From contig JAGUYG010000048.1 in assembly GCA_020061465.1 (NCBI GenBank), positions 1 to 64,000 on the forward strand: 64,000 nucleotides of DNA, in the 5' to 3' direction. Under the pieces are notes generated by a model, which worked only from the letters and a program-made list of their open reading frames with translations, was not told the DNA's origin and searched no databases. Of the stretch, positions 49,367 through 63,669 are shown piece by piece. This DNA is from Ignavibacteriales bacterium. Lineage in GTDB: Bacteria; Bacteroidota; Ignavibacteria; Ignavibacteriales; Ignavibacteriaceae. Positions within the stretch are counted from its first letter, which is position 1; the number at the start of each line of letters is the position of its first letter. The position numbers were made by a program, and so were the translations under genes.

Positions 49367-50296
49367 ATGAAAAAATTATACTACTTTTCCCAGTCAAAAC
49401 TGCAATTTATTGAGATTAAAAACTACAAAAGGAAACTCGCTTTATTTTTAGTTGGGGCAATTTTTATTTGTAGTTCTATATTAATAGGCGGATATTCGTT
49501 AATTTATTCTTTAACCAATCAAGATTTTAGTTTGTCTTCACTTCAAGTTCAAAATGAAATGTTAAAGAATAAATTAATGGAGTTGAAGGACCGATATGCC
49601 TTGCTCAATAATCAGTTAGATAGTATAACTCAGGTTAATAACGAATTAAGAATTGCGGCTAACTTACCTCCCATTTCCGCCGAGGAAAGAATGCTCGGTA
49701 TAGGAGGTAGCTCTTTAGATAATTCATTTGATTTCCTTAATAACCAATCGGATCTGAAATTAAATAATGCACTATCCTATATAGAAGAAGTAACAAGAAA
49801 AATAGAATTCGAAAAGAGCCAATACATAGAAATCTCTAACAAATTAACTGAAAACAAAAAATTATTTGAAGCCTTGCCGGCAATAAAACCTTGCACAGGG
49901 ACTGTATCCGCACACGGATTCGGAATGCGTTTACACCCTATACTGAACATAAGAAGAATGCATGAAGGCATCGATATCATTACTGATGTTGGTACTCCTG
50001 TTCATGCTGCAGGAAAAGGAGTTGTGGATTTTGTTGGATACAGGGGCGGCTATGGTTTGGCAGTAGAAATTGACCACGGCTTTGGCTATAGAACGTTGTA
50101 TGCTCATCTATCTGCAGTTAAGGTTAAAGAAGGACAAAAAATTCAAAGAGGGGATTTGATGGCCAAATCCGGAAACACAGGGCTATCTGCCGGACCACAT
50201 TTGCATTATGAAGTGCAACACAATGGTATCAAACAAAATCCAATCGAGTTTTTCTTCGACGATATGGGGTTCTTCGAATTCAAATCAAAAAAATAA
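49367..50296 (+). CDS. M23-family metallopeptidase (murein hydrolase-like)
   Basis: A 309-residue membrane-anchored protein. Residues about 24-46 form one membrane helix. About 60-175 is a coiled coil with Asn/Leu-rich heptads. The C-terminal M23 (LytM) domain covers about 190-300 and has HEGIDI (His and Asp ligands, near 201) and HLHYEV (near 281), with GYGLAVEIDHGFGYRTLYAHLS between. It should cut peptidoglycan cross-bridges or, if inactive, activate amidases; the zinc ligands appear present. The layout (TM, coiled coil, LytM) matches division-type M23 proteins. Confidence 0.92.
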   Translation: MKKLYYFSQSKLQFIEIKNYKRKLALFLVGAIFICSSILIGGYSLIYSLTNQDFSLSSLQVQNEMLKNKLMELKDRYALLNNQLDSITQVNNELRIAANLPPISAEERMLGIGGSSLDNSFDFLNNQSDLKLNNALSYIEEVTRKIEFEKSQYIEISNKLTENKKLFEALPAIKPCTGTVSAHGFGMRLHPILNIRRMHEGIDIITDVGTPVHAAGKGVVDFVGYRGGYGLAVEIDHGFGYRTLYAHLSAVKVKEGQKIQRGDLMAKSGNTGLSAGPHLHYEVQHNGIKQNPIEFFFDDMGFFEFKSKK

Positions 50297-50317
50297 TTTT
50301 ATGTGGAGAACTAGTAG

Positions 50318-50539
50318 ATGATTTGGACAGTTGAATTAGCTTCCTACTTAGACGATGCACCATGGCCGGCTACTAAAGAAGAGTTGATCGATTATGCTGA
50401 TAGAATTGGTGCTCCATATGAAGTAATTGAAAATCTGATGGAATTAGAAGATTCCGACGAACCTTATGAATCCATCGAAGATATTTGGCCGGATTATCCC
50501 ACTGATGAAGATTTCTTCTACAATGAAGATGATTTTTAA
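50318..50539 (+). CDS. DUF2795 domain protein, very acidic
   Basis: A 73-residue protein. Residues about 7-45 match the DUF2795 pattern (YLDDAPWPATKEELIDYADR). Twenty-four of 73 residues are Asp or Glu, against two Lys/Arg, with an acidic tail (DEDFFYNEDDF). Function unknown. GTGGAG lies about 11 nt before the ATG. It starts 21 nt after the M23 gene, so it is probably cotranscribed. Confidence 0.82.
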   Translation: MIWTVELASYLDDAPWPATKEELIDYADRIGAPYEVIENLMELEDSDEPYESIEDIWPDYPTDEDFFYNEDDF

Positions 50540-50667
50540 TCAGCAGTCTGATTCTCCACTTTAACGTTTAGCGAAAAGGTTCATAAATTACCGGCACGAA
50601 AGATATTTTTTTTATTAGCGACCTTTAGTCTTAGTTCGGAATAAAAATACTTTTTTAGAGTGTGCTC

Positions 50668-51792
50668 ATGTATGATGAATGGGAAGGAATATACGGACAG
50701 GAAAATGCTATCAGGATACTTACACAACTAATTTCTACTTCACAAATACCCCACGCCTATATTTTTAAAGGAATTAATGGCACGGGAAAAGAGCTGACCG
50801 CCATTCGTTTTATCACATCCTTAAACTGCAAATCAAACCCTTCGAAAAATGAATCTTCTATCAAACACAAAATTGAAATTTATTCAGAGCCTTATGTAAA
50901 ATATATTTTCCCTTTCCCGAGAGGGAAAAAAGAAACTTCCGGCGATGAACCGTTTGAAAAATTAACTGCCGAAGAAATGCAGATTATTCAAAATCAAATT
51001 AATTCTAAGATAAATAATCCTTACTATAAAATATCCATTCCGAAGGCTAACCAAATACGAATTAACAGCATAAGAGATATTAATAAATTCATAGCGCTGG
51101 ACTATTCAGATATCTATTACAGACTTATTCTAATTTCGGAAGCACACTTAATGAATGAAGATTCACAAAATGCTTTACTAAAAAATTTAGAAGAACCTCC
51201 GCATGGGGTAGTTTTCGTTCTCACTACTCCTTACCCTGAAAAATTGTTCGAAACCATTCGTTCAAGATGTTGGCAGCTAAATTTTCAACCCTTACAGCCG
51301 GTTCATATAAAGGAAATCTTGATGAAATATTTCAAAGTTGAAGAACATCTGGCGGAAGCAGCTGCACCGTTTGGTAATGGTTCGGTAATTGCATCATACA
51401 ATTTGATTGAACACGACTTTGAATCTCTTTTGGAAAAAACAATCAGTGTTCTTAGGTACTCCTTTGGCAGAAAGTATCATTCTGCCTTTATCGAAATAAG
51501 CAAGCTTATTGACGAGAATGCTGCCGATACATTAAGGCTGTTAATACAAATGATGATTATTTGGTTGAACGACGTTCAAAAATATCGTTTAGGAATTAAT
51601 GATTGTTTTTTTAATAAACATCGTGAAACCCTGGAAAAGTTTACAACAAAATTTCCTAATTTAAACTTAGTAAATATAACTTATAAGCTTGATTCATTAG
51701 CCGCAAGTTTGCAGAATAATATAAACGTAAATCTTGTGTTGCTTAATTTAATTATTGAGTTATCAAATTTAATTATAAAAAAAGGGGAATAA
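50668..51792 (+). CDS. holB: DNA polymerase III subunit delta'
   Basis: A 374-residue AAA+ clamp-loader subunit. WEGIYGQENAIRIL opens the protein. The P-loop-like GINGTGKEL has Glu in place of the usual Ser/Thr after Lys. SEAHLMNEDSQNALLKNLEEPP near residue 166 is the classic delta'/gamma signature, and the arginine-finger-type RSRCWQLNF follows. It has few Cys and no zinc module, unlike E. coli delta'. The C-terminus diverges. The ATG at 50668 follows AGAG; a GTG two codons earlier is less likely. Confidence 0.88.
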   Translation: MYDEWEGIYGQENAIRILTQLISTSQIPHAYIFKGINGTGKELTAIRFITSLNCKSNPSKNESSIKHKIEIYSEPYVKYIFPFPRGKKETSGDEPFEKLTAEEMQIIQNQINSKINNPYYKISIPKANQIRINSIRDINKFIALDYSDIYYRLILISEAHLMNEDSQNALLKNLEEPPHGVVFVLTTPYPEKLFETIRSRCWQLNFQPLQPVHIKEILMKYFKVEEHLAEAAAPFGNGSVIASYNLIEHDFESLLEKTISVLRYSFGRKYHSAFIEISKLIDENAADTLRLLIQMMIIWLNDVQKYRLGINDCFFNKHRETLEKFTTKFPNLNLVNITYKLDSLAASLQNNINVNLVLLNLIIELSNLIIKKGE

Positions 51793-51856
51793 CCTCTTAT
51801 TAAAAACAAATTCGATTTTTCTGAATGAAAAATCACAATAAACTAGAGAGGTAGCA

Positions 51857-53035
51857 ATGAAGAAAGTAGTAATAACAAACGCAAAACGTACCGCTATCGG
51901 TTCATTTAACGGCGCGTTAGCCGGATTCTCAGCTTCGCAGTTAGGCAGCTATGCGATTAAGGCTGTCTTAGATGAAAGCGAATTAGGTGTTAATCTCGTT
52001 GATGAAGTTATATTCGGAAATGTTTTAAGCGCCGGGCAAGGGCAAGCCCCTGCGCGGCAAGCAGCACTTTATGCCGGGCTTCCGGATAAAACTGAATGTA
52101 TGACCATTAACAAGATGTGCGGCAGCGGGTTGAAGTCAGTTATGCTTGCACAGCAAGCCATCGCTCTGGGTGATGCTGATATAATCATCGCAGGCGGGCA
52201 GGAAAGCATGACTAACGCTCCATATCTTCTACCAAAAGCTAGAAATGGTTATCGACTTGGGCATGGAGAAGTTTTAGACTCAATGATTACAGATGGATTA
52301 TGGGATGTTTATAACAATGTTCACATGGGTTCCTGTGCTGAAAAATGTGCAAGGGATTTCTCTTTTTCCCGTGAAGAATTAGATCAATTTGCCATAAATT
52401 CCTATCGTAAGGCTCAGGAAGCGCAGAAATCTGGAAGATTTATAGATGAGATCACTAAAGTTTCTGTCAAAAGTAAACAAGGAGAATCTTTTGTAGATAC
52501 TGACGAAGAACCGGGAAAAGTTATTTTCGAAAAAATTCCCACGCTTAAACCTGTTTTCGAAAAAGGCGGCGTAGTAACTGCTGCTAACGCTTCGAGCATA
52601 AATGACGGTGCCGCTGCTTTACTTGTTATGAGTGAGGAATCTGCCTTAAAACTTGGGCTAAAACCCCTAGTTGAAATAGTTGCTCAAAGTTCCGCAGCGA
52701 AAACTCCAATGGAATTTACCACAGCACCTGCCGATGCAATAAATAAAGTCTTGTCTAAAGCGAACTTGAATATTAAAGATATCGATCTGTTTGAGATAAA
52801 TGAAGCTTTTGCAGTGGTATCTCTCGCTGTTAACAAGTTGCTGCGTCTTGAAAGCAGTAACGTAAATGTTAACGGTGGCGCGGTTGCATTAGGTCACCCA
52901 ATCGGTGCAAGCGGTGCACGTATCTTAACTACTCTAATCTATGAAATGAAAAAAAGAAATGCTGTTTACGGATTAGCATCCCTGTGTATCGGTGGAGGAG
53001 AGGCATCTGCTCTAATAGTAAAGAATTATTCATAA
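51857..53035 (+). CDS. Acetyl-CoA C-acetyltransferase (thiolase)
   Basis: A 392-residue thiolase. It condenses two acetyl-CoA to acetoacetyl-CoA or cleaves 3-ketoacyl-CoA. The nucleophilic Cys is in NKMCGSGLKSV near residue 89. The other active-site parts are NEAFAV, GGAVALGHPIGASGAR (about 340-355) and CIGGGE near the end. GAGAGG precedes the ATG. Followed 76 nt later by a 3-hydroxyacyl-CoA dehydrogenase, so the pair fits short-chain beta-oxidation or a butanoyl-CoA pathway. Confidence 0.95.
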   Translation: MKKVVITNAKRTAIGSFNGALAGFSASQLGSYAIKAVLDESELGVNLVDEVIFGNVLSAGQGQAPARQAALYAGLPDKTECMTINKMCGSGLKSVMLAQQAIALGDADIIIAGGQESMTNAPYLLPKARNGYRLGHGEVLDSMITDGLWDVYNNVHMGSCAEKCARDFSFSREELDQFAINSYRKAQEAQKSGRFIDEITKVSVKSKQGESFVDTDEEPGKVIFEKIPTLKPVFEKGGVVTAANASSINDGAAALLVMSEESALKLGLKPLVEIVAQSSAAKTPMEFTTAPADAINKVLSKANLNIKDIDLFEINEAFAVVSLAVNKLLRLESSNVNVNGGAVALGHPIGASGARILTTLIYEMKKRNAVYGLASLCIGGGEASALIVKNYS

Positions 53036-53111
53036 GTTTCTGGGGCTTTGGGTAGTAAAAATTATTAAATATTATGATGTTATCTATAAAATAAAAATAA
53101 GGGAGCAAGAA

Positions 53112-53963
53112 ATGGATATTAAAAAAGTATCGGTAATCGGAGCAGGAACGATGGGTGGGGGAATAGCTCATGTATTTGCATTAAAAGGATTCTCTGTAGA
53201 CTTGATCGACACAAATTCCGGTATTTTGGATAAAGCCACTAGTAGCATTTCTAATAATTTGGACAGGCAGATTAAAAAAGAAATAATTAATGAACAAGAA
53301 AAGACTTCTGCTCTATCAAGACTAACTCCAATAATCGGAATAGAAAACACTAATAATAATTCAGATCTGATTATAGAAGCAGTATATGAGAATAAACCAG
53401 TAAAACTTGATATTTTCAATAAATTACATTCAATAGTTAAATCGGAATCTATATTTGCTTCAAATACTTCTTCTATTTCTATTACGGAATTAGCATCCTC
53501 TACACGTCCGGATAAGTTTATTGGAATGCATTTCATGAATCCTGTTCCGGTAATGAAACTTGTTGAAATCATTCGCGGATATTCCACTTCGGATGAAACT
53601 TTTAATGTAATTAAAGATCTTTCTATAAAACTCGACAAAACTCCCGTTGAAGTATTTGATTACCCGGGATTTATATCGAATCGGGTCTTAATGCCGATGA
53701 TCAATGAAGCGATATTTGCACTGTTTGAAGGTGTGGCATCTGCAGAAGACATCGATACAGTGATGAAATTAGGTATGAATCATCCAATGGGTCCTCTTAC
53801 TCTTGCCGACTTTATTGGTCTCGATGTTTGTCTTGCTATTTTGGAAGTTCTAAACGAAGGCTATGCCGATCCAAAATATAGACCTTGTCCACTATTAAAA
53901 AAGATGGTAGCAGCTAAAAAATTAGGGAGAAAAACCGGTGAAGGATTTTTTAAGTATTCATAA
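53112..53963 (+). CDS. 3-hydroxybutyryl-CoA dehydrogenase
   Basis: A 283-residue NAD(P)-dependent 3-hydroxyacyl-CoA dehydrogenase that interconverts acetoacetyl-CoA and 3-hydroxybutyryl-CoA. The Rossmann motif GAGTMGGGIAHVFALKG is at residues 10-26. The catalytic His is in GMHFMNPVPVM near 139, and NRVLMPMINEAIF is near 192. The C-terminal domain ends with GRKTGEGFFKYS. AAGGGAG lies before the ATG. It works with the thiolase directly upstream. No crotonase follows. Confidence 0.95.
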   Translation: MDIKKVSVIGAGTMGGGIAHVFALKGFSVDLIDTNSGILDKATSSISNNLDRQIKKEIINEQEKTSALSRLTPIIGIENTNNNSDLIIEAVYENKPVKLDIFNKLHSIVKSESIFASNTSSISITELASSTRPDKFIGMHFMNPVPVMKLVEIIRGYSTSDETFNVIKDLSIKLDKTPVEVFDYPGFISNRVLMPMINEAIFALFEGVASAEDIDTVMKLGMNHPMGPLTLADFIGLDVCLAILEVLNEGYADPKYRPCPLLKKMVAAKKLGRKTGEGFFKYS

Positions 53964-53976
53964 ATAGAACTAAAGT

Positions 53977-56097
53977 TTGAAGGCTAACAAAAAGAAATTA
54001 TTATTAAAGTATTTTATAAAGTCACGCCAATTTAAACGTGCTTTACAAAAGAAATTTTCCCAGCTTGCTTTACCGGATTATACTTCCTTTAGTATCTTAT
54101 CTGTCATAATAGGAATAGCTGCCGGTTTTTCGGCAGTTTTATTTCACAAATCAATTGAATTGTTAAACATCCTTTTTTTTGGACAATCAGCAGAAGGTTT
54201 CTATTTCTTAGGAGCCACCTCTGTTATTTTACTTCCTGCTTTGGGAATGTTCATTCAAGGAATTATGATTTTACTAGCTCCGGATGTTGCCAAGAAAAAA
54301 GGAGTTACTGAAGTTATTAAAGCTGTAACACTCAGAGGCGGTTATATTCCATTGCGTACAACCATATTTAATTTCATTGCTCCTGTTATATGCATTGGAT
54401 CGGGCGGTACGTTAGGTCCTGAAGGTCCAGCAGCTCAATTAGGGGGTGGAGTTGCCAGTAAATTAAGCAACTTGTTTGGCTTATCTGATGTTCGTATAAG
54501 AATTTTTACTGCTGCCGGTACAGGTGCAGCCATTGCAGCAATTTTCAACACACCTTTAGGCGGAGTTTTCTTTGCTCTCGAAATTGTTTTATTAAGTGAT
54601 TTTCATGCTCCAACATTGGCAGCTCTCATCCTTGCAACGGTTGCAGCCAGTGCAGTATCAAGAATTATTTTGGGAAATGAGTCTGTATTTCTTTTTTCCA
54701 TAGAGAACTCAATAGATTTTTCAAATTTATATTTATACGCAATTTTAGGGTTGATAGCTGGTGCCGTTTCATTATTCTTTATAAAATACTCTAATAGAAT
54801 TCAGTATTTGTTTCGAAAGAAAATATTAACAGGGTCTGTACCGCAGTGGCTGATAATGACCTTCGTTGGACTTGTAATCGGAGTTTGCGGATTTTTTTTT
54901 AAAGGTATATTTGGAATTGGATATGATGCAATAAATGAAATCTTATCAAATAAGTTGGCTTGGTACACCGTAATTGTCCTGATAGGTTTAAAGTTTATTT
55001 TAGTACCTATTACGTTACACTCAGGCGGTTTTGGTGGATTATTTGCCCCTTCATTGTTCATTGGTGCCGGAACGGGATACATTTTCACTTATGTAATTAA
55101 TTCAATTTGGAATTTAAATTTAGACCCCACGACAATGATTCTTGTTGGTATGGGAGCAGTACTCGGAGGTATTAATACCATTCCAATTTCAGCTATTCTT
55201 ATAATTTTTGAAATGACGCAAAATTATTCTTTTATTCTTCCATTGATGTTAGCCGTAATCATTAGTACAATGCTTGTTCAGATAGCATTAGGCGGCTCGG
55301 TACATTCACGGCACCTTGAGTCGGAGGGATACCGAATTACCGAAGGACGCGAAGTAAATCTCTTAAAGTCAATTCTGGTATCGGAGGTCGAACTTGAAAA
55401 GATAATCACCATTAGTGAAGTTAGTACCTTACCGCAATTAATGGCAAAATTAATCGAAACCCCGGGTAATTCTTTATTCACAGTAGATACATCAAATAAA
55501 ATAACAGGCGTAATTACATTAGAAGAGCTAAGACCGATAATAACTGAATATGAAAATATTAAAGAAGTTTTAATTGCGCGTGACTTAACTAATCCTGAAT
55601 TCACAATTGTAAAGACTAGGGACGATTTGGATTTTGTTTTTAACCTTTTCGGTAAATTTAATTTAGATCAGCTTCCGGTCTATGCTCCGGAAGATGACAA
55701 TAAAATATTAGGTGTCATTACTAGACAAAAAGTAATATCCGTTTATAACGAAGAAAGTCTTAAGATTGACATTAAAAGCGGATTAGCGAAAGAATTGAAA
55801 ACCTTGAATTTTGCAGAAGCCTCTGAAATTGCAGACGGATACTCAATAATTGAATATCAAGCAGTTCCTAATATCATTGGAAAGAGTCTTAAAGAACTTA
55901 GGCTGCGAAATAAATTCGGAGTAGAGGTATTAATGATCAAAAAAAGAAAAGACTTTTATTCAGATAAAACAGATCCGATTATTTATACACCGGATCCCGA
56001 ATACAAAATAAAAGAAACAGATACGTTAGTTCTTTTTGGAAGTAATGAAAATTTAAACCGCTTAAAAGTTGGGGATGCTGAGTCTAGACATATCTAG
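53977..56097 (+). CDS. CLC chloride transporter with CBS and RCK_C-like domains
   Basis: A 706-residue protein. The CLC membrane domain covers about 40-440. It keeps the gating Glu (GPEGP, Glu149), GGLFAPSLF near 355 and the central Tyr (TQNYS, about 417). The usual GSGIP serine is replaced (KKGVTE, about 108), and the inner proton Glu position is Ile203 (ALEIVL). A CBS pair covers about 460-600. A C-terminal RCK_C/TrkA_C-like domain (about 615-700) ends in DTLVLFGSNENL. The TTG start is 13 nt behind the dehydrogenase. It could be an exchanger or a channel. Confidence 0.9.
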   Translation: MKANKKKLLLKYFIKSRQFKRALQKKFSQLALPDYTSFSILSVIIGIAAGFSAVLFHKSIELLNILFFGQSAEGFYFLGATSVILLPALGMFIQGIMILLAPDVAKKKGVTEVIKAVTLRGGYIPLRTTIFNFIAPVICIGSGGTLGPEGPAAQLGGGVASKLSNLFGLSDVRIRIFTAAGTGAAIAAIFNTPLGGVFFALEIVLLSDFHAPTLAALILATVAASAVSRIILGNESVFLFSIENSIDFSNLYLYAILGLIAGAVSLFFIKYSNRIQYLFRKKILTGSVPQWLIMTFVGLVIGVCGFFFKGIFGIGYDAINEILSNKLAWYTVIVLIGLKFILVPITLHSGGFGGLFAPSLFIGAGTGYIFTYVINSIWNLNLDPTTMILVGMGAVLGGINTIPISAILIIFEMTQNYSFILPLMLAVIISTMLVQIALGGSVHSRHLESEGYRITEGREVNLLKSILVSEVELEKIITISEVSTLPQLMAKLIETPGNSLFTVDTSNKITGVITLEELRPIITEYENIKEVLIARDLTNPEFTIVKTRDDLDFVFNLFGKFNLDQLPVYAPEDDNKILGVITRQKVISVYNEESLKIDIKSGLAKELKTLNFAEASEIADGYSIIEYQAVPNIIGKSLKELRLRNKFGVEVLMIKKRKDFYSDKTDPIIYTPDPEYKIKETDTLVLFGSNENLNRLKVGDAESRHI

Positions 56098-56245
56098 AAG
56101 CTTCAAAAAGAATCAGGCAGAAATGCAAGAATGTGTCCGATAATGTATATTATGTAAACTTTCTACTTTCCTATTTTCAAACCAAACTTTGTATATCATA
56201 ACCTCTTTTAGAGCTACCGTAATTGTTAAGTGGAATATGCTAAAT

Positions 56246-56452
56246 TTATATTGCGTGAGATAATTTAAGGTAGAGATAAATTACAAGTAGTATGAATATT
56301 AGCCATATTATTGGGCTGCGTTTTTTAGTGCGGTATTTTTTTTTAGAACGAAATCCGAGTTTGCGTTTACGCCGTTCTTCTGCATCAGTTTCGGGTTTAT
56401 AAAAGCGCGGTGTATAATCAAAAATCCTATGTCTTGGTTTTTTCATGAACAT
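56246..56452 (-). CDS. Small basic protein with a C-terminal membrane helix
   Basis: A 68-residue protein. The first 45 residues are strongly basic (RRKRKLGFRSKKKYRTKKR), followed by one membrane helix (about 48-63, PIIWLIFILLVIYLYLKL). It reads like a tail-anchored peptide. It lies 7 nt after ftsY on the same strand, so it is the last gene of the purF operon. No family was recognised. Confidence 0.6.
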   Translation of the reverse strand: MFMKKPRHRIFDYTPRFYKPETDAEERRKRKLGFRSKKKYRTKKRSPIIWLIFILLVIYLYLKLSHAI

Positions 56453-56459
56453 GTTCTAC

Positions 56460-57404
56460 TCAAGAATCCTCGTTGAAAAGTGCATCTACAAATAATTGAG
56501 GGTCGAAGGTCTGTAAATCTTCGATTTGTTCACCAACTCCGATATAGCTCACGGGAATCTTCTGTCTATTGCAAATTTGAAAAACTACCCCACCTTTAGC
56601 GGTTCCATCCAGTTTAGTTATTACTAAACCAGTGATGTCCGTAACTTTGCTAAATTCTTCAGCCTGCTTCACTGCATTTTGTCCGGTTGCCCCATCGACA
56701 ACTAATAGAGTTTGGTGTGGAGCATCTGTAATGATTCCTGATATCACCCTTCGGATTTTCTTCAATTCTTGCATAAGATTAGATTTATTATGCAGTCTTC
56801 CGGCAGTATCGATTAGAACGATATCATATTCTTCAGTCTTAGCTTTTTTTAGTGCATCATAAGCTACCGATGATGGATCGCTCCCTTTGAATTTCTGTAT
56901 AATCTCGACACCGGCGCGTTCAGCCCAAATTCCCAATTGTTCATTTGCCGCCGCTCTAAATGTATCGGCAGCACCGACTAGTACTTTCAATCCTAACATT
57001 CTGTAGTTGTAAGCAAGTTTTCCAATTGTCGTTGTCTTCCCCGTTCCGTTAACACCAACAACAAGGATTACAAACGGCTTATTTTTATTTAGTTGAAACT
57101 CCTTCCCGTTTGTATTATTTATACTTAGTACATTCTTCAATTCTTTTTTAATTGAATCAATTAATCGGATATCCGATTTGTTTTTTTCTTCCTTGTACAG
57201 CTTCCGGGCTTGTTCAATAATCTGCTGTGCCAAATCAATTCCGATGTCTGACGTTACCAATGCTTCTTCCAACTCATCCAAAGTCTTTTCATCAACTACG
57301 GCTTTGCCTGTAACAGCTTCATTAAGCGCGTTTACGAGTTTAGTACGGGTTTTTGTTAATCCCTCTTTTAATCGTCCAAAATTAATATTTTTAAACAGAT
57401 TCAT
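56460..57404 (-). CDS. ftsY: Signal recognition particle receptor FtsY
   Basis: A 314-residue SRP GTPase that docks ribosome-nascent chain complexes at the membrane. The N domain is about 1-95. The G domain has the P-loop GVNGTGKTTTIGKLA near residue 117, DTAGRLHNKSNLMQEL and TKLDGTAKGG near 265. The acidic A domain is absent, as in many FtsY proteins. The start overlaps pgsA by 14 nt. Confidence 0.96.
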   Translation of the reverse strand: MNLFKNINFGRLKEGLTKTRTKLVNALNEAVTGKAVVDEKTLDELEEALVTSDIGIDLAQQIIEQARKLYKEEKNKSDIRLIDSIKKELKNVLSINNTNGKEFQLNKNKPFVILVVGVNGTGKTTTIGKLAYNYRMLGLKVLVGAADTFRAAANEQLGIWAERAGVEIIQKFKGSDPSSVAYDALKKAKTEEYDIVLIDTAGRLHNKSNLMQELKKIRRVISGIITDAPHQTLLVVDGATGQNAVKQAEEFSKVTDITGLVITKLDGTAKGGVVFQICNRQKIPVSYIGVGEQIEDLQTFDPQLFVDALFNEDS

Positions 57405-57963
57405 GCTTTTTCCTTCTTATAAACTCTGATGCTCTTATGCCGTATGCAATAAGAGATATTATCATTAAGGCTATGCTTAAATAATAAAAAAAGTTAAATA
57501 AAAAAAAATTCCTATCGATGTTAAGTATTATTAAAAGTATCACAATTCCTATGAAAGAAACGGTTATTTTACCAATAACATTAGATGGCAAAACTTTTCC
57601 TAAAAGATTAGATATAATTATTCCGCCTATAAAAATTACTAAATCCCTGCCGATGATGAGAAAGAAATAATATGCGGAAATTTCTTCGATAAGAAAAAGT
57701 TTAATAACTATTGCAGTTATAACTGCTTTGTCGGCAAGAGGATCAATAATTTTTCCGAGCTCTGTGATTTCGTTGTATTTCCTTGCAAGATATCCGTCTA
57801 AAGTATCCGTGATTGCTGCAAAGATGCAAATAATGAAGATAGTAGTCCGGGTTGCTTGAGAAGAAAAATCATCAAACAAAAACCATAGCGGGATGGCTAA
57901 AAGTAGTCTAAGTATGCTTAAATAATTAGACCTCGTTCTTATTTCCGCAATATTTATTTTCAT
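57391..57963 (-). CDS. pgsA: CDP-alcohol phosphatidyltransferase (PgsA-like)
   Basis: A 190-residue integral membrane enzyme. It joins CDP-diacylglycerol to an alcohol, most likely glycerol-3-phosphate (phosphatidylglycerophosphate synthesis). The catalytic motif D-x2-D-G-x2-A-R-x8-G-x3-D-x3-D is seen as DTLDGYLARKYNEITELGKI plus IDPLADK at about residues 53-77. Five or six membrane spans are visible. The ATG overlaps the end of the subtilase gene by 4 nt (ATGA). Confidence 0.92.
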   Translation of the reverse strand: MKINIAEIRTRSNYLSILRLLLAIPLWFLFDDFSSQATRTTIFIICIFAAITDTLDGYLARKYNEITELGKIIDPLADKAVITAIVIKLFLIEEISAYYFFLIIGRDLVIFIGGIIISNLLGKVLPSNVIGKITVSFIGIVILLIILNIDRNFFLFNFFYYLSIALMIISLIAYGIRASEFIRRKKHESV

Positions 57964-60900
57964 CTTATCACCGCAAATTTCCCCATCTTTTCTTCTAACT
58001 CGTTATTTGAATTATCAAGCCTGACTATTCGAAATATATAAATTCCCGAATTTAAAAGTTGACCCGATTTATCTCTTAAATCATATTCTAAACCCCCCGT
58101 CCCGCTTCTTGCCTCCAAATCGATTATCCGTTCTCCATTTAAATTCCAAATAGAAATTGTTGCGCGCTGCGGAAGATTGGCAAATGTAATTTTATTAGTA
58201 CCATTTGAATTTAATTTTACGGGACTGGGATATACATACACATCAGCAAGGTTTTCCGCAAAACTTCTAATCACAATTAGACTCCCTGCGCCGCTGTTTA
58301 TTTTTTTATAACCGGTGGCATTGGAGGAAAAAATATTTTCTAATTTTAGCTTATATTCAATTCCAACAGAACCGATCGGTCTTTTCTTTTCTAGAAACAG
58401 ATATAAAACTGCCGGATTGTTTTCATCAATTGAAATATGCGAAATGAAATTTTCAGGATTGAATTTATAATTTCCGATATTCATTGCGCTTACCGGATCG
58501 GCTGCCAAGTTAAGATTTATTTGCAATGAAAAAGGATCGATTAATTCGTAAGATGCTATGTAGAAATCATCACTCCCCTTCTCTTCTTGAACTATAAAAC
58601 TGACGGTATCGTTGGCAATAGGCGATCCAAAAAAATCAGATAAATCTTTACATGTTAACATTTGCAGTCCTTCCGGCAGATTACAATTAAATGTTAAGAG
58701 ATAAGAATATTGCGATGCTGCGGAGATTGAATTCGGATATTCAAACGATAGGACATTAAATGATTGTAAATTTGTTATACTGCTGCTTATTCTTTCAGAA
58801 AATTTTATTAGTACTGTATTTGCACTTTGACTTTCCGCCAAAATTAATTTTGCCGGTGCATGTGAATAAACTTCCAGCGCTTCACTCAAGGCGGAATACT
58901 GATTTTCTTTATCAGCCTTATAAGATTGAATTTTGTAGTAATAATTTTCATTTACCGATACATCACCATCATAATATTCTTCTGTTAAGCTTGAATCGAT
59001 GAGAGTAAATTCGTTTTTTGTTTGAGATCGGTAGATAAAGTATTTATCTGCCTCTCCTTTCCACATTAATTTTATTGTATCGGCACTAATACTAAAACCT
59101 TTCATCTCAACCGGAACAGCCGCTCGCTTTGATTCCTCAAATTCATAAAACTTTATACCATCGGCTGCTTGAAGTGCAATTTCAGTTACGCCATTGCTAT
59201 TAAGATCTCCTGAAAAAATTGCAGGAGTGTTTATTCCTTCTTTATAAAAAATTATCTTATCATTTAACCCTTCTCTTTTGAATACATAAGCATGAGGAAA
59301 TAAATTAACTACCAATTCATGTTTGCCGTCGTTATTTACATCAACAAATCTAAGACTATTAAACACATCTAAGAAAGCCATACTTTGAAATTCAGCCGAT
59401 TGATCAATGAATACAATTTCAGTGATGAGATTCAGCTTGTTATCTTTATAATTAAAAACAACCACTAATTGATAAGGAGCGATGCTTCTTGCATTTAATA
59501 TTACTGCAATATCATCAACGCCATCACCGTCATAATCTCCAACAGAGATGGTGTTATTGAATCGGCTGGTAAAGTCCGTAGCAATTGAGAATCCTTTTGT
59601 AAAGTTTCCGTTATTTATATTATAACTGAAAAGGTCTCCATCTCTATCCAAAAACCATAATTCTTTAACACCGTCATTATTACAATCCGCGATTACAACG
59701 TTTCTTGTTAAGTAATTACTCAATCCAAATGTTGTATCTATCGGAGAATAATTTCCAAGTTTTTGGTTTAACACAGGCTTACCAGAATTGCTAATATTCC
59801 AAATGCCAATTGATTCTTCTTTGGTTATTGTAACTATCTCCGGAATTCCATTTCCGGTTAGATCATCGACGAGAATCGGAAAAAAATCTCCGCTTGAATC
59901 TGAATACAAAGAACTAAATTGAAACTGATCGGCGCTTATTTGTTCGTCAAAATAACCGTTCCGTTCAAATGAGCTGATTAATTCTTTCTTGCCGTTATTG
60001 TTGAAATCAGTAATTGAGCGTGGAATTTTATTTTTAATTGAATCACCCGCCGTTAAAAACTTTTCTCCGTCAAATCTTAATAACTTATAATAAAGAATCT
60101 GACCCGGATAAAACTCATTGAACAATATTTCATTATCTGTATCGGTTGTAATTCTTACCGGATCGGGAAATATAGTTCCTTTAGGAAGACTAAATGGCAT
60201 TTCGTAGTTCGTCCATGGAATATCAAACGGATAAGTTTTAACTAAAAAATAGTTTTGCCCATCTTTCAGGATTGTCTTTAACCCTGCAAGATTCTCAATT
60301 TCAAAATAAATCTCATAAAATGTATTCGGTTCAACAATAGAAACCGGTAGAAATCCGAAATGTAAATTCTTAACAAATTGATTATTGACAGCAAATCCAT
60401 CAAGAGTTATAAAGCGGAATTCAGAAGTTCCCTGCTTTCTATAGAACATTTTTGAAACAGCAATTTGATCGGTGTAAATTTCTGCAAGAATGGTCGAATG
60501 TTGTCCGGAATAAACAGTCCCGAATCCCACAAGCTCAGCATCCGGAGTTTTGCGTTGAACATGGAAATTGATACGTTCTTCCGTCAATCTTCCATCATTC
60601 ATATAAACAATTAATCTAACAGTATAAACTCCTTCATTAAAATTAGTTAAATCGATTATCGCAAGTTTTTCATTGCTGAATTGATTCTTAATATTCGTTT
60701 TAATTTCAGTCCATACAGTAGGATTTTCCCCCTCACCTAATAGAAGATCGCATGCAATAAAATAGGGTGATAAAACCGTAGCGAAGATATTGAGCGTGTC
60801 CTCTTTCGTTGCAAAATCCTGCCATGGATAATTGAATTTTATTTTACCGGGTGCCAAAACAGATAATGCCTTGTGCATATTCAATCTTCCTGCTCCGCTT

Positions 60901-62198
60901 TTTGTATCCCACCCGGGGCTATTGATATCATTCGCCGTCGATTTTATAATTTGTTTTACTTCATCGTTAGTAAAACTTCCGAGAGAAAGAATTAATGCTG
61001 CAGTTGCTGAAACAAACGGCGCAGATGCCGAAGTACCGCTTACATTTGTATAAGAATTATTCAAGCCGGTTGTAAGTATCGAAGAACCCGGTGCAACAAG
61101 GTCTAACGTTGAACCAAAGTTTGAATTACCGGAAACATAATCTTCAACTGTGCTGCTCCCTACCGATATTACCTCCGTAAAACCGGATGGATAATGTGCG
61201 GCATCGGAAGCAGAATTACCCGAACTAGCAACCATTACAATGTTCTGCTTGTGTGCATATTTTATTACATCTCTTAGTACGTATGAGAATTTACTATCGC
61301 CAAAACTCATGTTAATCACTTTTGCGCCCATTTCTATTGCATAGAGAATAGCCGCAGCAACATCATCTTCCTCGCCGTATCCTCCCGGATCGAACGCTCG
61401 TAAATTTAATACTTTTATATTCGGAGCAGCACCCGCTATCCCTATTTGGTTATCAGTTTCGGCGGCTGCTATCCCTGCAATAAAAGTTCCGTGCCCGTGT
61501 TCATCAAAAGGATCGTTATCCCAATTAAGATAATCCCCTGCTGAAGTATCGAATGGAAAGCCTGTGCGATCAGTAAAATCCCATCCCATATAATCATCTA
61601 TAAAACCGTTTCCGTCATCATCTATTCCATTGAAACGTTTATCTCTTCCAAACGCATCAAACCCAATTTCACCTGAATTAAAATAGATTTTATTTTTCAA
61701 ATCAGGATGAAAATAATCCATTCCTGTGTCTATGATGGCAAGAATAATTGAATCCTCACCCATCGTAGTATTCCAAGCGTCGAATGCACGAATTTTTTCC
61801 AATCCCCATTGCTGTGCAACTGCACTGTCATTCGGCATAAAATCCAACCGGTACCTGATTGATTTTTGCACATATTCTACTGCGTTATCATCTGCCGCTG
61901 AAGAGAGAAATTTATCCGCTTCATCATCGTTCTTGAAGATGAGTTTAACGATGCGCGAAAGTTCACTGTGATCTTTCCCTAAACCTTTAGCAAAATATCC
62001 TGCTTTAATTATTTCAACTTCATTACTGATACTTTTGTTAAGAAGAGAGGGGAAAATTTTTTTCGTTTCGATTAACTCGTCAATTTTCACAGACGGAATT
62101 GTTTCTTTGTATTTGATGAAATAAACACTTTGCGGATGAATGAAGGCAAAACTTAGAATAATATATATTGAAATAAATTTTAGCCGGTTAAAGCTCAT
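57960..62198 (-). CDS. Secreted subtilisin-like S8 protease with T9SS sorting domain
   Basis: A 1412-residue exported protein. A signal peptide covers about 1-23. The S8 domain has Asp in AIIDTGMDYFHP (about 157), His in DEHGHGTFIAG (about 236) and Ser in GTSASAPFVSA (about 390). The middle (about 690-1010) has at least five FG-GAP/VCBS-like Asp/Gly repeats, such as DCNNDGVKELWF and DYDGDGVDDIAV. A fibronectin-like part follows. The last 85 residues are a type A T9SS sorting domain (VYVYPSPVKLN, then WNLNGERI and GIYIFRIV). The ATG at 62198 was chosen for AAGGA before it; it lies inside the last codons of purF. Confidence 0.93.
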   Translation of the reverse strand: MSFNRLKFISIYIILSFAFIHPQSVYFIKYKETIPSVKIDELIETKKIFPSLLNKSISNEVEIIKAGYFAKGLGKDHSELSRIVKLIFKNDDEADKFLSSAADDNAVEYVQKSIRYRLDFMPNDSAVAQQWGLEKIRAFDAWNTTMGEDSIILAIIDTGMDYFHPDLKNKIYFNSGEIGFDAFGRDKRFNGIDDDGNGFIDDYMGWDFTDRTGFPFDTSAGDYLNWDNDPFDEHGHGTFIAGIAAAETDNQIGIAGAAPNIKVLNLRAFDPGGYGEEDDVAAAILYAIEMGAKVINMSFGDSKFSYVLRDVIKYAHKQNIVMVASSGNSASDAAHYPSGFTEVISVGSSTVEDYVSGNSNFGSTLDLVAPGSSILTTGLNNSYTNVSGTSASAPFVSATAALILSLGSFTNDEVKQIIKSTANDINSPGWDTKSGAGRLNMHKALSVLAPGKIKFNYPWQDFATKEDTLNIFATVLSPYFIACDLLLGEGENPTVWTEIKTNIKNQFSNEKLAIIDLTNFNEGVYTVRLIVYMNDGRLTEERINFHVQRKTPDAELVGFGTVYSGQHSTILAEIYTDQIAVSKMFYRKQGTSEFRFITLDGFAVNNQFVKNLHFGFLPVSIVEPNTFYEIYFEIENLAGLKTILKDGQNYFLVKTYPFDIPWTNYEMPFSLPKGTIFPDPVRITTDTDNEILFNEFYPGQILYYKLLRFDGEKFLTAGDSIKNKIPRSITDFNNNGKKELISSFERNGYFDEQISADQFQFSSLYSDSSGDFFPILVDDLTGNGIPEIVTITKEESIGIWNISNSGKPVLNQKLGNYSPIDTTFGLSNYLTRNVVIADCNNDGVKELWFLDRDGDLFSYNINNGNFTKGFSIATDFTSRFNNTISVGDYDGDGVDDIAVILNARSIAPYQLVVVFNYKDNKLNLITEIVFIDQSAEFQSMAFLDVFNSLRFVDVNNDGKHELVVNLFPHAYVFKREGLNDKIIFYKEGINTPAIFSGDLNSNGVTEIALQAADGIKFYEFEESKRAAVPVEMKGFSISADTIKLMWKGEADKYFIYRSQTKNEFTLIDSSLTEEYYDGDVSVNENYYYKIQSYKADKENQYSALSEALEVYSHAPAKLILAESQSANTVLIKFSERISSSITNLQSFNVLSFEYPNSISAASQYSYLLTFNCNLPEGLQMLTCKDLSDFFGSPIANDTVSFIVQEEKGSDDFYIASYELIDPFSLQINLNLAADPVSAMNIGNYKFNPENFISHISIDENNPAVLYLFLEKKRPIGSVGIEYKLKLENIFSSNATGYKKINSGAGSLIVIRSFAENLADVYVYPSPVKLNSNGTNKITFANLPQRATISIWNLNGERIIDLEARSGTGGLEYDLRDKSGQLLNSGIYIFRIVRLDNSNNELEEKMGKFAVIR

Positions 62199-63669
62199 AG
62201 ATTTCCTTTTTGAAGCTGGTATCAACCGGTGTAGGATACTTTCCGGAGAAACAAGCGGTACAAAAATTATCCGGATTAGCTTCTTCTACTGCCTCTAACA
62301 TTTCATCAATCGTCAAATATTCCAGGCTGTCAACTTCTAAACTTTTTTCAATGCTTTTGATATCTCCGTTGTGCATGTTAGCAATAAGTTCTTCCTTACT
62401 CGGGAAATCCATTCCGTAAAAACAGGGGTGATGAATCGGTGATGAAGAAATTCTTAAATGAATCTCCTTCGGATTTGCTTCGCGGATTAAATTCACAAGC
62501 TGTTTTGATGTAGTCCCCCGAACAATTGAATCGTCTACTATCACAACAGTTCGTCCTTCAAGAACTCCTTTTACAATATTAAACTTAATGCGAACACCAA
62601 TTTCTCGTTTTTGTTGTCCGGGAAGAATAAAAGTTCTGCCGATATAGTGACTTCTTATTAAACCTATTTCTAATTTTGAATCGATCCCTAATTTATCTAA
62701 TTCGGTTTGATATCCTAATGCAGTTGTGTTTGAACTATCGGGCACACTTATAACAATTACCTTCTCCCCATCTTTATCATAAACAGGATGTTTGCGCGCC
62801 AACACCTTACCGAGGCGACGGCGCATCTTATCAACATTATGACCATAGATAAAACTGTCAGGTCTTGAAAAATATATGTATTCAAAAACGCAATGCTTTT
62901 GTTCAACCGGAATTTCGCTTATTCGATATGAATTCACTTTGTTATTATTTAGCGATGCATGATCTATAACGATCATCTCCCCTGCATTAACTTCACGGAT
63001 AAATTTTGCCGAAATTATATCAAATGCGCAAGTTTCAGATGCTACGACAAAGGCACCGTTCACTTTTCCAAGCACAAGCGGTCTAAATCCGTACGGGTCG
63101 CGTGCAGCAATTAATTTATCATCGGTAAGTATTGTAAGCGAATATGCACCTTCAAGCTTTGAAAGCGCTTCACGCACCTGCTCTATTTGGTTATCAAGTC
63201 TGCTTCTTGCAATCAAATGAAGAATGACTTCAGTATCGCTGGTTGTTTGAAATATAGATCCTTCATTTATTAATTCTTCCCTAAGCAGGGTTGCATTTGT
63301 TAGATTACCATTGTGAGCGACGGCTAAATTTCCGAGCCTGTAATTAACAACAAAAGGTTGAATATTTTTTCTTGATTTAGCAGAACCTGTTGTGGAATAC
63401 CGGTTATGCCCGATGGCAGAATGACCGGTTAAAAAATTTTCGAAGATTGTCGAATCTGCAAATACTTCCGAAACAAGCCCCTCCCCTTTGTGCACATTAA
63501 AAACCGAGTGTGCATTTTCGTTAATATGTTGAGTTACTATTCCTGCGGCTTCCTGTCCCCTATGCTGGAGGGCATGTAACCCGTAATAAGTTTTTAAAGC
63601 TGAATCTGCCGCACCGAAAATTCCAAATACACCGCAATGGCATTTGGGTTTATCATTAAATCCATTCAT
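62188..63669 (-). CDS. purF: Amidophosphoribosyltransferase
   Basis: A 493-residue enzyme making 5-phosphoribosylamine from PRPP and glutamine, the first step of purine synthesis. An 11-residue propeptide (MNGFNDKPKCH) precedes the nucleophilic Cys (CGVFGIFG), so the mature protein should begin at that Cys. The glutaminase domain is about 12-240. The PRPP loop VVIVDDSIVRGTT is near 360. Cysteines matching the iron-sulfur ligands of the B. subtilis enzyme are visible (KHCVFEY, HHPCFYG, FCTACFSG), so it is the 4Fe-4S type. It leads the purF-protease-pgsA-ftsY chain. Confidence 0.96.
   Translation of the reverse strand: MNGFNDKPKCHCGVFGIFGAADSALKTYYGLHALQHRGQEAAGIVTQHINENAHSVFNVHKGEGLVSEVFADSTIFENFLTGHSAIGHNRYSTTGSAKSRKNIQPFVVNYRLGNLAVAHNGNLTNATLLREELINEGSIFQTTSDTEVILHLIARSRLDNQIEQVREALSKLEGAYSLTILTDDKLIAARDPYGFRPLVLGKVNGAFVVASETCAFDIISAKFIREVNAGEMIVIDHASLNNNKVNSYRISEIPVEQKHCVFEYIYFSRPDSFIYGHNVDKMRRRLGKVLARKHPVYDKDGEKVIVISVPDSSNTTALGYQTELDKLGIDSKLEIGLIRSHYIGRTFILPGQQKREIGVRIKFNIVKGVLEGRTVVIVDDSIVRGTTSKQLVNLIREANPKEIHLRISSSPIHHPCFYGMDFPSKEELIANMHNGDIKSIEKSLEVDSLEYLTIDEMLEAVEEANPDNFCTACFSGKYPTPVDTSFKKEIYEL

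Follow-up and report, generated by a model that had tools for sequence, protein, structure and literature searches.

Sequence comparison and structure prediction point to a CLC anion transporter, putatively dimeric and most likely a proton-coupled exchanger gated by a glutamate, Glu149, in which the central anion site would be built unlike that of CLC-ec1, the Cl-/H+ exchanger of E. coli (ClcA); we give this reading a probability of about 0.5. The protein, of 706 aa, is encoded within the window, by which we mean the whole stretch of 64,000 nucleotides analysed. By its fold and its gating Glu it is a regular CLC, and the alignments identify the residues of its central site as a natural variant. 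Across its lineage the buried Lys is gone (His or Asn instead), with Lys or Arg at the position of the central Ser and, in nearly all members, His at that of the central Tyr.

Gene and domain organization

The gene (Table 1) is a single open frame of 706 codons with a TTG start, and the longest listed ORF on the reverse strand of the same interval has 108 aa. The source genome is a draft of 4.2 Mb, in which the 706-aa protein is the sole CLC match found. Its nearest named relatives are Ignavibacteria, and no close relative was found among plasmids, where all 361 matching records lie below 60% identity.

The Voltage_CLC profile (PF00654) scores 282.9 bits against a curated cut-off of 24.8, and TrkA_C (PF02080) scores 34.4 bits against 27. 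The CBS region is matched by Pfam at E 2.3e-9; two CBS stretches pass alone at E<=1 and one at E<=0.01, and two beta-alpha units are seen there in the AlphaFold model. Among the NCBIfam equivalogs none reaches its cut-off, the best being PRK01862 (298.7 bits, cut-off 482), with PRK05277 (ClcA) at 186 bits against 350. The AlphaFold model, made with 36 aligned relatives, has a mean pLDDT of 82.8, superposes on CLC-ec1 (1ots) with Z 49.0 and rmsd 2.9 over 421 aligned residues, and, with regard to the CLC-F fluoride/proton antiporters, also matches the fold of 6d0j (Z 45.3). The best PDB match by sequence is 2ht2 (123.5 bits), then 3ejz (122.7), with the wild type 1kpk at 120.7; according to their structure titles, 2ht2 carries the Y445H and 3ejz the E203V mutation of CLC-ec1, in keeping with His443 and Ile203 of the protein.

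Taken together, these comparisons identify the product as a genuine and conserved member of the CLC family, to which a CBS pair and, at the C terminus, an RCK_C domain are joined. The original prediction, a CLC pathway joined to two cytosolic sensor-type domains, is thus borne out by the domain searches and by the confident fold of the membrane part, and its RCK_C-like domain was found by the TrkA_C profile near where it had been placed.

Table 1. Positions of the gene, its domains, its pore residues and its upstream neighbours in the window
Feature	Position	Strand	Remarks
Thiolase	51857..53035	+	Upstream neighbour
3-Hydroxyacyl-CoA dehydrogenase	53112..53963	+	Immediately upstream; its stop lies 13 bp before the CLC start
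CLC-CBS-CBS-RCK_C protein	53977..56097	+	706 aa; full-length orthologues known
CLC transmembrane domain	54244..55278	+	Pfam Voltage_CLC, residues 90-434, E 5e-84
Lys108	54298..54300	+	Aligned with CLC-ec1 Ser107 (central Ser)
Asn132	54370..54372	+	Aligned with CLC-ec1 Lys131 (buried Lys)
GPEGP with gating Glu149	54415..54429	+	Glu149 corresponds to CLC-ec1 Glu148; Pro148 in place of Arg147
Glu202 and Ile203	54580..54585	+	Glu202 kept; Ile203 at CLC-ec1 Glu203 (inner proton Glu)
TQNYS	55216..55230	+	Corresponds to CLC-ec1 TDNYQ (Tyr419), not the central Tyr
His443	55303..55305	+	Aligned with CLC-ec1 Tyr445 (central Tyr)
CBS pair (PF00571)	55369..55746	+	About residues 465-590; first weak, second 534-590
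RCK_C / TrkA_C domain	55870..56064	+	Residues 632-696, Pfam

Residues of the central anion site

In CLC-ec1, the central anion is stabilised by Lys131, which lies buried 7-9 Å behind it, and the inner gate is made up of Ser107 and Tyr445. The 706-aa protein, about 24% identical to CLC-ec1, shares with it the fold, the gating Glu, Glu202, the FAP stretch and the EMT-N/D-Y motif, but differs in the replacement of Ser107 by Lys, Lys131 by Asn, Arg147 by Pro, Glu203 by Ile and Tyr445 by His, and in the added CBS and RCK_C domains. These residue columns are not in doubt, since the alignment is gapless over residues 107-148 (a 41-residue spacing in both proteins) and from Glu414 to Tyr445 (a 31-residue spacing in both).

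Most of what had been foreseen for the pore agrees with this alignment: the central Ser motif is lost, KKGVTE standing in place of GSGIPE, the Glu of GPEGP is the gating Glu, and the inner proton position holds Ile203 and no Glu. The central Tyr, in contrast, had been taken as retained in TQNYS, and this has to be withdrawn, because that motif is the Tyr419 region and the gapless alignment sets His443 at Tyr445. The change from Lys131 to Asn132 had been missed.

These residues were compared in an orthologue set of 27 distinct aligned sequences, the 706-aa protein included, of which the 26 others are full length and 46-63% identical to it; full-length orthologues were found in two families (f1 and f2) of the same order. 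At residue 108, 16 sequences carry Arg and the other 11 Lys; residue 132 is His in all but the 706-aa protein itself (26/27, the one Asn being its own), and Pro148, Glu149 and Glu202 are each present in 27/27. Residue 203 is Ile in 20, Val in six and Leu in one, and residue 443 is His in 25, Gln in one and Thr in one. Retention of the pore residues in 26 other distinct sequences is more than chance would give. The residue just before, number 107 of the protein, varies (K, R, H, Q, N or E) and is basic (K/R/H) in 23 of the 27. The comparison of positions 108 and 203 that had been suggested as a check shows always Lys or Arg at the former and never Glu at the latter; lack of the inner Glu does not separate a channel from an exchanger.

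The orthologues form one lineage, with support of 100/100 in a 62-row tree, together with a CLC from another family of the same class (L067, 36% identity). The match to L067 ends at residue 589 in a frame of 597 aa, which leaves no room for an RCK_C domain.

Distribution among other CLC proteins

Two further sets of CLC proteins were surveyed, with residues given here in CLC-ec1 numbering. The first held 155 rows, the query and CLC-ec1 included, after removal of 14 duplicates and of the window's own two loci, and was drawn mainly from the class and phylum of the 706-aa protein, a small number of named Opitutales being included; CLC-ec1 and five rows with a gap at one of the sites were left out, so that 149 were counted, or 150 in the count of residues 107 and 131, where a letter at 445 was not required. 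Since part of this set was collected through its similarity to the 706-aa protein, its frequencies are not those of CLCs at large. The second held 120 loci, the bulk of them belonging to further families within the phylum and ten being named plasmid records, and gave 113 proteins, 105 of them counted; L254, L255 and L269 were duplicates, L198, L259, L260 and L279 had no hit of at least 300 aa, and L225 is listed as a duplicate yet also stands among the 113. Certain genomes are represented in both sets, and almost every row comes from one phylum; 231 of 267 rows are gapless with the right spacing.

In the first set, Glu148 is present in 149/149 and the inner Glu in 18/149; it is absent in 131/149, with Ile, Val or Leu in 126/149, and its loss is thereby ruled out as a special feature of the 706-aa protein. 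Residue 107 is His in 65, Lys in 21, Arg in 21, Ser in 19, Glu in 18 and another residue in five, and residue 445 is Tyr in 82, His in 25, Met in 20 and another residue in 22. In the second set, Glu148 is kept in 92/105 and Tyr445 in 85/105.

An exclusion pattern links residues 107 and 131. Among 255 CLCs scored, Lys or Arg at 131 occurs in 0/63 of those with Lys or Arg at 107 as against 134/192 of the others. By set, the figures are 0/42 (residue 131 being His in 39, Asn in two and Gln in one) against 94/108 in the first, and 0/21 against 40/84 in the second, the 21 including L290, whose Arg107 comes from a doubtful alignment and which was omitted from one of the trees. His131 is almost confined to rows with Lys or Arg at 107 (46/48 His131 rows among the 231 gapless ones). 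The converse is looser: 44/84 rows of the second set that lack Lys/Arg107 lack Lys/Arg131 too, as in His107/Ser131 or Ala107/Val131, and 58/255 overall have no basic residue at either position, so that not every CLC requires a charge there. A coupling between residues 107 and 147 was also considered and dropped: in the first set 42/42 Lys/Arg107 rows lack a basic 147, but in the second Lys107 goes with Arg147 in seven rows (five K-V-R, two K-I-R).

Several other variants came to light in the survey. The CLCs of Parabacteroides, Phocaeicola, Bacteroides and Prevotella (L281-L284) have His107, Ser131, Ala147 and Tyr445; to judge from these rows, Lys131 cannot be called universal even among familiar gut and oral genera of the Bacteroidales. 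The gating Glu148 is Leu in nine and Gln in four of the 105 counted in the second set, and LGP in place of EGP is seen in L191, L194, L195 and similar loci. Glu takes the place of the central Ser (GEGIPNV or GEGVPMV) in L027-L029, L050, L096-L098, L100, L101 and L103-L110, and residue 147 is Lys or Arg in each of the 18 Glu107 rows of the first set. Met stands at the central Tyr in 20 rows of the first set; such proteins (IRGHGIPE ... IMTE) include L054, L060, L062, L130, L132-L138, L140, L142-L145 and L201. Finally, small CLCs with frames of about 430-470 aa (L181, L199, L203, L227, L232-L235 and similar) show KGNN or AGNN for GSGIP, GREGT, and Val or Ile at 131, some with Lys107; from their motif we presume that they may be fluoride-type CLCs.

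The association between residues 107 and 131 is, however, confounded by descent, which on the present trees explains much of the pattern. Tests with independent pairs had only 3-4 and 5-6 pairs to work with and gave no significance, and independent origins of Lys/Arg107 are not supported. An AU test does not reject the window clade and the other large clade lacking Lys131 as one (p 0.26). It does reject the Lys/Arg rows of both clades as a single group, a nearly trivial outcome because these rows are thereby torn out of a supported clade; the trees were flagged for long branches and odd composition. Nearest in pattern are the 'GLEAP/GLESP' CLCs of the phylum (for example L031, L052 and L172), which resemble the 706-aa protein in Lys/Arg107, His/Gln131, a non-basic 147 and a hydrophobic 203, but have Leu147 and Tyr, Asp or Glu at 445, and form a separate clade in the tree, a joint origin not being rejected.

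Cytosolic domains and gene neighbourhood

An Asp in the second CBS unit is typical of the nucleotide motif; its position holds Asp in 18/27 orthologues and Lys in the 706-aa protein. A TrkA_C match (E<=0.01) is present in 35/36 of the relatives chosen for the alignment, among them proteins of 30-33% identity with GHGVPEV and Tyr at 445, so that the fusion is not tied to the unusual pore residues. Nor is the fusion a special feature, being common in the class and among these relatives and known from EriC (Gbs1174) of Streptococcus agalactiae, which shares the CLC domain and C-terminal RCK_C; the accessible part of that report does not mention a CBS pair (PMC5919688).

The best PDB match of the RCK_C domain is 4xtt, the RCK_C of S. 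aureus KtrA, which is described as a c-di-AMP complex with a pocket made of I163, I164, D167, I168, R169, A170, N175, I176 and P191 (PMC7288161). When these letters are matched to the 4xtt chain to deduce its numbering, the pocket Arg, R169, corresponds to Arg644, which is Arg in 27/27 orthologues, and P191 aligns with Pro674, whereas I163, I164, D167, I168, A170, N175 and I176 are replaced by L, K, R, L, N, E and V; of these, the I164 position is Lys639 and the N175 position Glu650, with Glu in 26/27. The domain thus shares with KtrA the RCK_C type and the conserved c-di-AMP-pocket Arg, but differs in the Asn175 to Glu650 and Ile164 to Lys639 changes and in being carried by a CLC and not by a K+ transporter subunit. 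A diadenylate cyclase gene is present in the source genome. The isolated RCK_C of EriC is reported to have given no c-di-AMP signal, in an assay of this domain and not of the full protein (PMC5919688). Control by c-di-AMP through RCK_C is, from these comparisons, possible. As for the CBS pair, a 2014 review takes a eukaryotic structure to suggest that CBS domains touch helices D and R, which carry residues 107 and 445, at their inner ends (PMC4188032).

Upstream of the gene lie a thiolase and a 3-hydroxyacyl-CoA dehydrogenase gene, and the dehydrogenase and CLC genes are probably on one transcript because of the short gap between them. A dehydrogenase homologue stands upstream in 14/26 testable orthologue loci, with a thiolase beside it in 13/26, and both are found in the L067 locus; the 26 include the locus in the window, and one (L034) that was counted on the strength of a match of 29 residues at the end of its contig; L004, which starts at a contig end, was left out. 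Further on, FtsY comes next on the opposite strand, in the window as at many of these loci. These neighbours hint at a link with acetoacetyl-/3-hydroxybutyryl-CoA metabolism, but the dehydrogenase is absent upstream in 12/26 testable loci, and we do not take the neighbourhood as proof of a substrate. No Rfam riboswitch was found at 50000-57000, where one sub-threshold snoRNA match was taken as chance. Elsewhere in the window, the minus strand encodes at 57960-62225 a 1421-aa subtilase (S8) with FG-GAP repeats, whose C-terminal stretch resembles, by eye, a secretion-system sorting tail.

Discussion

The mechanism that we propose places in the inner gate the positive charge that CLC-ec1 keeps behind its anion site. 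Lys/Arg108 would there hold the anion, or Glu149 when this residue swings in, and would help to close the gate, while protons may cross by water wires without an inner Glu, perhaps aided by His443. Judging from other CLCs, CBS and RCK_C would lie below the gate-bearing helices D and R and would probably tune the gate upon a nucleotide or osmotic signal. That the side chain of Lys108 reaches the anion is what we infer, relocation of the charge being the simplest account of the residue pattern.

CLC-ck2 of Citrobacter koseri, which reportedly has Ile at the inner Glu as the 706-aa protein does, is said to exchange protons still, with part of the selectivity signature missing. The literature likewise cites it as pumping H+ with a non-dissociable residue at that position (PMC3519907, PMC7253180), and several homologues without a titratable inner residue are reported to pump H+ (PMC7253180). 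In agreement with the original prediction, which held that some CLCs without this Glu exchange protons, its loss does not tell a channel from an exchanger.

Against charge relocation, the main rival is a helix C-D loop flipped as in CLC-K, by which Lys/Arg108 would face the cytosol or the CBS domains and serve in regulation or anion capture, leaving an anion site made of backbone amides. In bovine CLC-K the Ser is described as pointing away from the site, and backbone amides as important for selectivity (PMC9726985); a neighbouring residue 107 that is basic in 23/27 would also suit a solvent-facing stretch. The strictness of K/R at 108 (27/27), where 107 varies, and the link between a basic 108 and the loss of Lys131 speak against such a flip, and we regard it as conceivable but doubtful. 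The protein might instead be an uncoupled or leaky anion channel whose gate no longer alternates with Glu149 and is controlled by CBS and RCK_C. Both inner-gate residues, Ser and Tyr, are replaced, and changes of this kind reduce coupling in CLC-ec1, where S107G is reported to lower H+ coupling 3-fold (PMC6019066) and some Tyr445 mutants to look channel-like (PMC4188032), so that weak coupling or a channel is possible; CLC channels, too, are said to carry Val at the inner Glu (PMC3519907), where Ile203 is found here. Aliphatic residues are, however, usual at this position among the surveyed CLCs (126/149), bulky charged gate residues would hardly amount to a wider pore, and Glu149 is kept throughout the orthologues (27/27), which makes a channel unlikely.

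It is also conceivable that the transported anion is larger or doubly charged, for instance a short-chain organic acid of the adjacent thiolase and dehydrogenase. The dehydrogenase upstream in 14/26 testable loci, with the thiolase beside it in 13, and the presence of both genes next to the 36%-identical L067 lend some colour to this idea, but 12/26 loci have different neighbours, and FtsY adjoins many of the same loci, so that the gene order may be inherited without functional meaning; we hold such a substrate to be improbable. Hardly credible, finally, is a protein that no longer transports and serves as a membrane sensor with the CLC body as anion receptor: its altered gate and site and its two sensor-type domains would fit, but Glu149, Glu202 and the FAP stretch are conserved. 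A proton-coupled transporter with the charge relocated into its gate is the reading that we prefer. A bolder form of it, in which the bound anion is held in the gate by a fully charged basic side chain together with an imidazole, instead of by the buried Lys plus Ser/Tyr of CLC-ec1 and its well-studied kin, another anion (an organic acid or a divalent one) is transported and CBS/RCK_C confer control by (cyclic di)nucleotides, seems to us improbable as a whole.

The roles of Lys131, Ser107 and Tyr445 in anion binding and coupling are an active question that has been addressed mainly with point mutants of CLC-ec1. In this regard, the K131A mutant is reported to have a Kd for Cl above 20 mM and a turnover lowered about 20-fold, with a stoichiometry of about 3 as against 2 and coupling largely intact (PMC12248016). 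Lys131 is stated in print to be universally conserved and the central Tyr to be invariant, and a 2014 review describes CLC anion sites as being without full positive charges (PMC4188032). A search of the openly licensed literature, mostly at the level of titles and the first lines of abstracts, found neither a natural CLC whose central Ser position is basic nor a CLC-CBS-RCK_C protein, which is weak evidence of absence.

By its aligned residues, the orthologue lineage departs from the statements on Lys131 and the central Tyr, neither of which holds among the surveyed CLCs of the phylum, and both are hereby corrected. It would depart as well from the statement on full charges if Lys/Arg108 lines the anion site; a reading with both charge and imidazole in the gate, if true, would break all three. 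The orthologues are natural triple variants retained by evolution. Provided that they are active, they would reveal whether the gate itself can house the positive charge of the central site, and whether proteins lacking the central Tyr can still couple.
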